Assembly: GCA_002071415.1 (NCBI GenBank)
Contig: MWFC01000011.1
Coordinates: 1-53,881, forward strand
Direction: 5' to 3'
Origin: Bacteroidetes bacterium ADurb.Bin012
GTDB taxonomy: Bacteria > Bacteroidota > Bacteroidia > Bacteroidales > TTA-H9
DNA: 53,881 bases
In this document: positions 4,819-53,881 of the stretch, piece by piece
Layout of the letters: the number at the start of each line of letters is the position of its first letter
Numbering within the stretch: position 1 is the stretch's first letter
Program-made: the position numbers and the translations under genes
The notes under the pieces: generated by a model
The model's input: only the letters and a program-made list of their open reading frames with translations
What the model was told of the DNA's origin: nothing
Databases searched by the model: none

Positions 4819-6069
4819 ATGCTGAAGAAGATCAAAATAGAATACGAGCATTTTCTTTCGATGCCATACAACATGAGGGTTTTGTTGATAACCAACATGT
4901 TATATTCCCTCGTGCTTCCCGTAGTCGAAATTTTTCTGGCAGCCTACATTATGCGTTTTTACAACGAAACCATTTATGTAGCCCTGTTTCAATTAGCTAT
5001 GTACACAGGTATCATTCTCACCTCCATCACGAATGGTTTTTTGCTGAAACATTTTAAGATTGCTCATCTCTATTCATTCGGTATTCTGCTGAGCGGGCTC
5101 GTGATGGCTAGCATGATGCAAATCGAACATCTGAGTGTGGCCCAGCTTTTTCTGGCAGGTCTCCTCATTGGAGCAGCTTCGGGTTTCTTCTGGACTAATC
5201 GCTATCTGATGACATTGAACTCTACCATGGATACCAACCGGAATTATTTCTTTGGATTGGAGTCGTTTTTCTTTACCCTCTCGAACATTATCGTTCCCTT
5301 GATTATTGGCGCTATATTGGCCGGTATCGATGGAATGAGGATAGGAAGCATAACCTTTAGCATTCAAACCGGATATCAAATCGTTACCTTAATTGTTTTT
5401 GCAATAACTATTTTGGCTTGTATATCCTTGGCGAGGGGCCATTATACAAATCCAGCCCAGAAAGAATTCTTCTATTTGAAATTTCATAATTTGTGGAATT
5501 TACAAATTGTGCTGGCAGCATTGAAGGGATTGGTGCAGGGTTTTTTAGTTACTGCACCAGCCATGCTCATCATGCGTTATGTTGGGAAAGAAGGGTCGTT
5601 GGGATTGATTCAGGGGATTAGCGGAGGGCTCACTGCGTTGATTGTGTATCTTTTAGGACGGTTTACTCAACCCAAACATCGTCTGGCGGTTTTTTCGGTG
5701 GGATTAAGCGTTTTCTTGCTGGGAACCATCGTCAATGGAATTCTGCTATCAGCCACTGGTGTAATCGTGTTTATACTTTGTAAGGTTGTTTTTCAGCCTC
5801 TTCACGATCTGGCTTATTATCCCACGATGATGAAAGTAATCGATGTGGTTTCGGTTAAAGAAAACCGTAATCCTTATGCTTACATTCTGAATCATGAATT
5901 TGGGCTGTACATTGGCAGAGTCATAGGTTTGGGGATATTCATCCTGCTGGCTCTCATGGTTTCGGAAGTATTTGCCTTAAGATGGTCACTCATTATTGTA
6001 GCTGCCATTCAAATGTTGTCTATTCCTCTGGCTAAAACAATCATGAAAAAATCTTATCAACCCCTATGA
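4819..6069 (+). CDS. MFS sugar permease
   Basis: A 416-aa integral membrane protein with about twelve hydrophobic segments, the size and pattern of a major facilitator superfamily transporter. It begins 14 nt after the GH130 gene, and its stop overlaps the next start as ATGA at 6066-6069, so translation is probably coupled. By position it should carry the mannose-containing di- or oligosaccharide from the periplasm to the GH130 enzyme. No substrate-specific motif could be identified. MFS permeases paired with GH130 enzymes are a recurring arrangement in Bacteroidota carbohydrate loci. Confidence 0.8.
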   Translation: MLKKIKIEYEHFLSMPYNMRVLLITNMLYSLVLPVVEIFLAAYIMRFYNETIYVALFQLAMYTGIILTSITNGFLLKHFKIAHLYSFGILLSGLVMASMMQIEHLSVAQLFLAGLLIGAASGFFWTNRYLMTLNSTMDTNRNYFFGLESFFFTLSNIIVPLIIGAILAGIDGMRIGSITFSIQTGYQIVTLIVFAITILACISLARGHYTNPAQKEFFYLKFHNLWNLQIVLAALKGLVQGFLVTAPAMLIMRYVGKEGSLGLIQGISGGLTALIVYLLGRFTQPKHRLAVFSVGLSVFLLGTIVNGILLSATGVIVFILCKVVFQPLHDLAYYPTMMKVIDVVSVKENRNPYAYILNHEFGLYIGRVIGLGIFILLALMVSEVFALRWSLIIVAAIQMLSIPLAKTIMKKSYQPL

Positions 6070-51239: not shown

Positions 51240-51302
51240 TGGTGGCTGGAGGCTGCTGATTAGTGATTGGCAGATGGCAGCTGGTGATTTGTTATTAGTT
51301 GT
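51240..51302 (+). repeat. Heptad island B, left G-rich arm (9 units)
   Basis: 63 nt split into nine heptads, each beginning with T and mostly TGG (TGGTGGC, TGGAGGC, TGGCAGA, TGGCAGC, TGGTGAT). The 10-mer TGGTGGCTGG is shared with the left arm of island C (53141-53150). Confidence 0.8.
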
Positions 51303-51306
51303 AAGT

Positions 51307-51333
51307 AAATGGGAAAAAAATATTATCTTATAA
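51307..51333 (+). pseudogene. Remnant of a four-helix-bundle gene start
   Basis: Nucleotides 51315-51333 are identical over 19 nt to 53208-53226, codons 3-9 of the intact four-helix-bundle gene. An ATG precedes both. After the match the sequence continues directly into the right C-rich arm, so the rest of the gene is missing. Confidence 0.55.
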
Positions 51334-51348
51334 CAACTGATAATCAAA

Positions 51349-51803
51349 AAACTCCAAATTACAAATTCCAAATAATTTTTCAAATTCAAAACTCCAGTTT
51401 CCTAACTTCTCATCTCCCCATCTCCTTTCATCCTTTCCACCATTTCTTCTTTCCTCCCTTCCTCTCTTTTTCCTTTTTAACTTTATAAACTTTTAACTTT
51501 TACTTACTAACCACCAACCACTATCCACTATCCACTATCCACTATCCACTATCCACTATCCACCATTTCTCCCTTCCTCTATTTTTCCTTTTTAACTTTA
51601 TAAACTTTTAACTTTTACTTACTAACCACCAACCACTATCCACTATCCACCATTTCTCCCTTCCTCCCTTTTTAACTTTATAAACTTTTAACTTTATACT
51701 TTTTACTCACTAACCACCATCCACTAATCTCCATTCACTTCGTCTCCCAGTCTCCCGTCTCCATTCTCCCTTTTCCCCTTCCTCCCTTTTCCCGTGTTTT
51801 AAA
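51349..51803 (+). repeat. Heptad island B, right C-rich arm with a duplicated segment
   Basis: A pyrimidine-rich stretch. In-phase heptads run 51490-51580 (13 units, including six CCACTAT), 51605-51667 (nine units, two CCACTAT) and 51723-51792 (ten units such as TCTCCAT, TCTCCCT). A segment beginning at 51467 recurs 115 nt later at 51582 with one difference nearby and a different CCACTAT count. Positions 51349-51373 are the inverted copy of 45239-45263. Confidence 0.85.
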
Positions 51804-53006: not shown

Positions 53007-53080
53007 CTTTACTGGAACATCTTCTGCTTCTTTTCGCTTAGGTCTCCAATGGTGCGTATGGGACTGAAAGGGCGAAGCTG

Positions 53081-53178
53081 TAGTTGGTAGTTGGTAGTTG
53101 GTAGTTGGTAGTTGGTAGTTGGTAGTTGGTAGTTGGTAGTTGGTGGCTGGTGATTGGTGGATGGTGGATGGTGGTTAG
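53081..53178 (+). repeat. Heptad island C, left G-rich arm (14 units)
   Basis: Nine perfect tandem TAGTTGG units (53081-53143) pass without phase change into TGGCTGG, TGATTGG, TGGATGG twice and TGGTTAG. It ends 22 nt before the four-helix-bundle ATG. Confidence 0.95.
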
Positions 53179-53200
53179 TTATGTCGATGATTATAAGGAA

Positions 53201-53566
53201 ATGAAAGAAAAAATATTATCTTATAAAGATTTGGAGGTTTGGAAGAATGGAGTTAAGTTAGCAAAGGATATTTATGGGCTTACGGAAACGTTCCCCTATC
53301 ATGAACTTTATGCATTGACTTCACAACTTAGAAGGGCTGCGGTATCGGTTTCATCAAATATTGCAGAAGGGTATGTAAGAAATTCGACAAAAGAATTCGT
53401 TCATTTTCTATATATCTCACTTGGTTCATTGGCCGAAATTGATACTCAGTTACAATTGGCAAAAGAATTAAACTATACAGAGAATACGGAGGAATTGCAA
53501 AATTTCATTGAAATGCAAATGCAACAAATCAGGTCATTTATAAACGCACTCAAAAGAAAAATATAA
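53201..53566 (+). CDS. Four-helix-bundle protein (S23 rRNA intervening-sequence / TIGR02436 family)
   Basis: A 121-aa, fully helical protein, normal length for the family. It starts MKEKILSYKDLEVWKNGVKLA, followed by TSQLRRAAVSVSSNIAEGYVR and FLYISLGSLAEIDTQL, the family landmarks. Relatives are encoded in intervening sequences of some bacterial 23S rRNA genes and as stand-alone genes of unknown function; a related fold (Avd) serves diversity-generating retroelements. Start 53201 is chosen because the open frame upstream is the heptad repeat itself. It lies between G-rich and C-rich heptad arms. Confidence 0.9.
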   Translation: MKEKILSYKDLEVWKNGVKLAKDIYGLTETFPYHELYALTSQLRRAAVSVSSNIAEGYVRNSTKEFVHFLYISLGSLAEIDTQLQLAKELNYTENTEELQNFIEMQMQQIRSFINALKRKI

Positions 53567-53583
53567 ACAAGCTAATCACCATT

Positions 53584-53646
53584 TTCTAACCTCCAGTCTC
53601 TAACCTCCAGTCTCCATTCTCCACTCCCCATTCCCAATTTTCTGCG
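53584..53646 (+). repeat. Heptad island C, right C-rich arm, first block (9 units)
   Basis: Nine in-phase heptads: CTCCAGT twice, CTCTAAC, CTCCATT, CTCCACT, CCCCATT and relatives. It begins 17 nt after the four-helix-bundle stop codon. Confidence 0.85.
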
Positions 53647-53698
53647 ACTATCTGCGAGAGTTCCATTCTGCGATATCTACGAGAAATTATTTCCTCTC

Positions 53699-53741
53699 TC
53701 GCTGATTTACCCAGATTTAAAAACGCTGATTTACCCAGATT
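53699..53741 (+). repeat. 18-nt direct repeat
   Basis: CGCTGATTTACCCAGATT occurs twice with a 6-nt spacer (about 53700-53717 and 53724-53741). It sits between the two heptad blocks of the right arm. Confidence 0.85.
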
Positions 53742-53746
53742 AATAA

Positions 53747-53881
53747 TTGATAACTAATAACTTAGTATTTACTTCTTACAACATATAACTGTCAACTGAT
53801 AACTGTCATCCTCCATCCTCCATCCTCCATCCTCCATCCTCCATCCTCCATCCTCCATCCTCCATCCTCCATCCTCCATCC
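53747..53881 (+). repeat. Heptad island C, right arm, second block running off the window
   Basis: Starts with varied units (TTGATAA, CTAATAA, CTTAGTA, CTGTCAA, CTGATAA) and, without losing phase, becomes a perfect CCTCCAT tandem (from about 53810). 19 heptads are visible before the window ends inside the array. Confidence 0.9.

Follow-up and report, generated by a model that had tools for sequence, protein, structure and literature searches.

A heptad island in a Bacteroidales contig is probably what internal deletion and decay have left of an IVP cassette

The closest described relatives of the elements studied here are the IVS insertions of rRNA genes in Coxiella and Leptospira. In the Coxiella 23S rRNA IVS, an S23p ORF is preceded by two or three tandem heptamers, depending on the strain, and the inverted termini form a stem of 28 bp. 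This IVS is cut by RNase III in vitro, and its ORF has lost 176 bp in one strain (PMC4990558). The same source cites a pentameric ring structure for a Xanthomonas homologue of IVP, and its account of the insertion ties heptads to IVP in this one rRNA element only. Insertions in the rRNA genes of CPR bacteria also contain IVP at several sites, with ORF-bearing and ORF-less forms side by side; they are described at rRNA sites only, and their description does not mention repeats (PMC11270868). IVP has further been listed as a CRISPR-Cas-associated function in cas loci, where it lies between operon genes (PMC3936711). Intergenic 7-nt tandem repeats, for their part, have been described in Beggiatoaceae, cyanobacteria, Bacteroidetes and Xanthomonas, in accounts that tie them neither to IVP nor to inverted pairs flanking a gene (PMC4679880, PMC4692102). 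A search of the open-licence literature returned no description of an IVP-heptad architecture outside rRNA genes or across phyla. The function and mobility of S23p/IVP have been an open question since the ORF was discovered in rRNA insertions, and its functionality and origin are still called unclear (PMC4990558).

We analyzed two heptad islands near one end of the window, i.e. the whole stretch of 53,881 nucleotides, which is the entire contig C11 of the 2.64 Mb genome of Bacteroidetes bacterium ADurb.Bin012. Island B (51240-51800) lies between ispF and a minus-strand ORF of 1432 aa that, by eye, looks like a hybrid two-component sensor. Island C (53065-53881) follows a gene for an UpxY-type antiterminator and runs into the contig end. 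Their features are as follows:

51240..51298, + strand: island B, G-rich heptad arm, with a heptad vocabulary common to other islands
51299..51333, + strand: putative IVP remnant (leader, start codon at 51309-51311, codons to 9, one base missing), aligned over 36 columns with 53191-53226
51334..51800, + strand: C-rich heptad stretch of island B, with three copies of an 88-nt unit
53065..53190, + strand: island C, upstream G-rich heptad arm, a TAGTTGG-type array followed by variant heptads
53201..53566, + strand: intact gene for a 121-aa IVP / S23p four-helix-bundle protein (Pfam PF05635, TIGR02436, PDB 2gsc)
53573..53640, + strand: island C, downstream C-rich heptad arm
53637..53740, + strand: dispersed CTGCG/GATTTACGC module adjoining the right arm; its match in genome G001 is the flank to the right of the truncated copy

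The protein encoded in island C matched the Pfam family 23S_rRNA_IVP (E 1.2e-35) as well as the TIGR family, and resembles the PDB entry in sequence (E 1e-26); island C thus contains the S23p ORF that characterizes the rRNA IVS, while island B holds only a frameshifted fragment of it. Neither island lies in an rRNA gene. The likeness of these cassettes to the rRNA IVS of Coxiella and Leptospira (PMC4990558) extends to the protein family, the heptamers before the ORF, the inverted termini, the deletion in the ORF and the sporadic distribution, the difference being that the cassettes studied here occupy intergenic islands or the gaps between protein genes. At the far end of island C, the contig terminates within a perfect CATCCTC array (53807-53881), indicating that the assembly broke at the heptads. 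G001 has an identical copy of the 24-nt stretch behind the UpxY gene (53058-53081), followed there by a different heptad array.

The first-pass annotation had proposed that island B repeats the plan of island C, with G-rich heptads, an ATG, an exact 19-nt match to the start of the IVP gene and then C-rich heptads, and that the gene body had been lost. This layout was found as described, and the match (51315-51333 against 53208-53226) extends upstream through the ATG. The 19-mer occurs at two forward and no reverse sites in the 2.64 Mb genome, even when one mismatch is allowed, so that these two sites are its sole pair. Over the 36 columns comprising the leader, the ATG and the first nine IVP codons, 51299-51333 and 53191-53226 align with a score of 45, compared with a best score of 32 for unrelated places among 4352 scored windows drawn from the own genome and of 33 in 5000 Markov shuffles; with the upstream heptads included, the alignment reaches 98 columns. 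Codons 3-9 are matched as had been claimed, but one base is absent between the ATG and codon 3, which shifts the reading frame, and the remnant is therefore not a short gene. Downstream, the later two copies of the 88-nt unit are 97% and 68% identical to the first. No significant match was found between the right side of island B and the stop region of the IVP gene (p 0.29 against shuffles), the two having TATAA in common, and a right-hand breakpoint based on this TATAA likeness was dropped.

In a BLASTN search of the whole genome with the 65-nt IVP gene start, only the gene itself ranked above island B (E 1.5e-4), and the following hit had E 0.0066. The same query reached E 2.9e-4 with an unrelated coding stretch of G001 (G001:C32), which was rejected as a further remnant since it is coding-like sequence without heptads; an E value of about 1e-4 is therefore insufficient by itself, and the argument for island B depends on where the match is found, namely at the correct position inside a two-stranded island. 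Might an A/T-rich run in island B simply resemble the gene start by chance, beside heptads that are ubiquitous in this genome? The A/T-richness of the match, the score of the G001 stretch and the heptad arms, which belong to a vocabulary common in this genome, speak for such a coincidence. Against it, the leader and start of island C scored 45 with island B and no more than 20 with the other 19 island pieces, the match is unique in the genome and correctly placed after the G-arm, and a longer truncated copy exists in a sister genome (see below). We thus give little credence to chance. Based on its sequence, the best reading of island B is that of an IVP cassette without its gene body, and the specific match of leader and start supports the earlier proposal of an internally deleted copy.

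The arms themselves do not contribute to this link. Every heptad island of this genome draws on one common vocabulary, and the 10-mer that the first-pass annotation had used to connect islands B and C proved to be part of it; only the leader and the gene start are specific. The left arm of island C matches solo islands elsewhere in the genome with scores of 63, 58 and 49, and island B ranks below its eight best matches, so heptad arms were rejected as proof of kinship between B and C. Among the scanned islands of the own genome, a G-strand array followed by a C-strand array was seen only in B and C, which, being two-stranded with IVP sequence between, differ from a simple heptamer microsatellite; the other island loci scanned fit that description. 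Because the islands of the 12 other loci are one-stranded and neither sequence nor BLASTN searches detected an IVP trace in the remaining heptad islands, this evidence gives no ground for regarding them as relics of the same element. Two-stranded island pairs with no long ORF in between numbered four, all with G before C and none the reverse, and two of the four are those with IVP remnants; these pairs are too few to uphold solo islands as gene-less cassettes. In the 12 one-stranded loci (L064-L075), modules of the GGTGGAT, AGGAAGG, AAGTTTATAAAGTT, AATTTGG and TTGTTAG types follow one another in a recurring order.

A second truncated copy was found in G001, the one other genome of the genus in our comparison, in which the order of sensor-like gene, island, ispF, UpxY gene and island is kept. 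At 5924-6033 of locus L161, G-rich heptads are followed by an ATG and 12 IVP codons (MEETILSYKDLEV), after which the likeness breaks off abruptly; the gene-start match covers 48 columns (E 2.1e-9). Beyond the break come CTGCG modules like those after the right arm of island C (53637-53740; 105 columns), and then C-rich heptads. We take this copy to be the site of island C, where an internal deletion has removed the gene after codon 12-13, and it answers the earlier suggestion that copies with other deletions should be sought. An ATPase-like gene, named by eye, lies between the UpxY gene and this copy in G001 and is absent from the window, hence collinearity with the window is incomplete on the left side. 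A dispersed module (CTGCGAGAG...CGCTGATTTACGCAGATT) stands beside heptad islands at 53637-53740 of the window, at 595-1225 of L149 and at 6060-6370 of L161, and the G001 counterpart of island B contains several tandem copies of it.

IVP genes are widespread: of the 148 genomes sampled from the phylum, 116 contained PF05635, with as many as 16 copies in one genome, and among 21 relatives, the own genome included, 17 did. To compare the arms, the upstream flank was aligned with the reverse-complemented downstream flank, using other ORFs from the same loci as controls. For 39 of 50 IVP copies (99 control ORFs; Mann-Whitney 3e-17), inverted similarity lay above the 95th percentile of the controls; this set contains orthologues, so that its copies are not independent. 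The same held for 60 of 79 loci from named genomes of many phyla (171 controls; 3e-20), the other 19 being at or under that percentile. The window's own cassette shows the inverted termini of the class weakly (score 11.0, z 2.1). Direct similarity was not raised in either set (p 0.06 for the 50 copies, p 0.44 for the 79 loci), and in a shuffle test of 60 loci z exceeded 4 for inverted arms in 29 and for direct arms in 9; some cassettes (L036, L040 and L093) have direct arms. A period of 7 was the best one in 53 of 68 upstream arms compared with 49 of 340 controls, and the upstream arm was G-rich in 67 of 75 cases, C-rich in 3 and tied in 5, while the heptad sequence varies from cassette to cassette. 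At two loci with otherwise ordinary IVP genes (L190 and L211), the arms resemble period 9 by eye.

An intact cassette spans about 450-600 bp and consists of an upstream G-rich heptad arm, a short leader, one gene for a small protein with a homopentameric solved homologue, and a downstream arm in which these heptads are inverted. In search samples biased toward proteins near the query, it is spread across phyla and mostly located between co-directional genes. Both neighbors are co-directional with IVP in 53 of 65 classed loci and both opposite in 1, compared with 252 and 35 of 393 control gene triples, respectively; the difference in all-same arrangements is moderate (p 0.0066). Not every family member is a cassette: a second, distant IVP of the window's genome (G000:C9:47827, locus L062; L061), belonging to a subfamily found in both compared genomes of the genus, has no heptad arms and may be domesticated or represent a different branch.

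The sense orientation within operons argues that the arms act in RNA, and it is possible, though doubtful, that they do so exclusively, as a stem at which RNase III excises the cassette from the mRNA, and take no part in its movement as DNA. The in vitro cleavage of the Coxiella IVS by RNase III (PMC4990558) agrees with such a role. The wobble test on arm differences argues against it, as the bias that an RNA stem would predict was absent and rather reversed, with 54 differences preserving G-U pairing and 85 breaking it (p 0.011). On this ground, an RNA stem kept by selection was rejected.

Turnover was followed in one genus (G046, G058, G074, G085 and G120) with a genome of an outgroup genus (G101), and these sister species show presence, absence, replacement and internal deletion of cassettes at shared junctions. 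At site b, IVP is lacking in G085, where three bases separate stop and start, and in G101; G046, G120 and G074 carry an orthologous cassette there, and G058 a different IVP with other arms. No target-site duplication was seen by eye at this site. At site c, the IVP gene of G058 has been cut internally between 8-bp direct repeats and is longer in G046 and G074, which extends the earlier prediction of deleted copies to another genus. At site d, the cassette is present in G058, G074, G085 and G101, and the gene is absent from G046 and G120, which differ from one another by 21 nt, or three heptad lengths. At site b, G046/G120 and G074 differ in both arms together; at site e, by contrast, variation is confined to the upstream arm, and co-variation of the arms was not used as proof.

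These junctions also bear on the view that heptad islands are microsatellites grown by slippage, which attract IVP insertions, so that the arms would be host sequence. The one-stranded islands without IVP at 12 loci of the own genome and the arm vocabulary common across its islands are in line with this view, and slippage is cited as a proposed source of heptamer repeats (PMC4679880). We nevertheless regard it as unlikely: the arms are inverted and of fixed polarity (67 to 3) in many phyla, the unoccupied site b of G085 has no heptads in its three bases, and at this one junction different arms arrive with different cassettes.

Taking these observations together, we consider it probable that island B is a relic left by internal deletion and decay of an IVP cassette and that such cassettes are selfish elements of the IVS type. 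The deletion would have taken the IVP gene from codon 9 onward and fused the upstream arm, leader and start to the C-rich heptad stretch. The cassette would belong to the class of the rRNA-gene IVS, outside rRNA genes, and would decay through internal deletion into forms such as island B. Its inverted arms may close it as a stem-loop in the transcript, mark its DNA ends for mobilization, or both, and the IVP pentamer may bind the heptad array with one subunit per repeat, an idea suggested by the ring structure cited for the Xanthomonas protein (PMC4990558).

REPIN/RAYT systems and MITEs likewise consist of small repeats around one gene and of short gene-less derivatives; unlike their single palindromes, the cassette arms are tandem heptads. 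No transposase was found in the IVP cassette, to our knowledge IVP is not a known transposase, and we know of no catalytic activity of the IVP protein, which leaves the cassette without a candidate for a mover. The first-pass annotation had seen the mark of a mobile element and its non-autonomous remnant in the two islands; the deleted copy is supported, but we see no sign that island B was mobilized as a non-autonomous element, and decay in place suffices to account for it. Continued mobilization of island B in trans, through the island C IVP, would fit an intact and a deleted copy lying 1.9 kb apart with a leader in common, but we hold it to be very improbable, since the genome has a single such remnant rather than multiple near-identical short copies and no movement was observed for either copy.

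A decayed cassette at island B could form part of a broader picture, which we advance only tentatively: IVP cassettes might be minimal selfish elements that span phyla, with one gene and inverted heptad arms, entering operon junctions in sense orientation, with a pentamer that reads the array one subunit per repeat, and the rRNA IVS might be just their rRNA-inserted cases. A recurrent cassette with fixed period and polarity would make the heptads a concrete substrate for the IVP protein, and the naturally empty, filled and deleted sites provide material for questions of movement. The cassette reading would also explain the occurrence of IVP in unrelated operons such as cas loci, where it can be mistaken for an operon function; IVP there, listed as CRISPR-Cas-associated in PMC3936711, is read here as cassette insertion at operon junctions.

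Heptad arms were present in 5 of 6 inspected IVP genes on plasmids, mainly direct ones in L269, and none were found in L267. In two cyanobacterial plasmids, of Anabaena and Pseudanabaena (L266 and L269), type I-D operons hold IVP between cas6 and cas4 together with long heptad arrays, an arrangement like that of the IVP genes between operon genes in the cas loci described before (PMC3936711).
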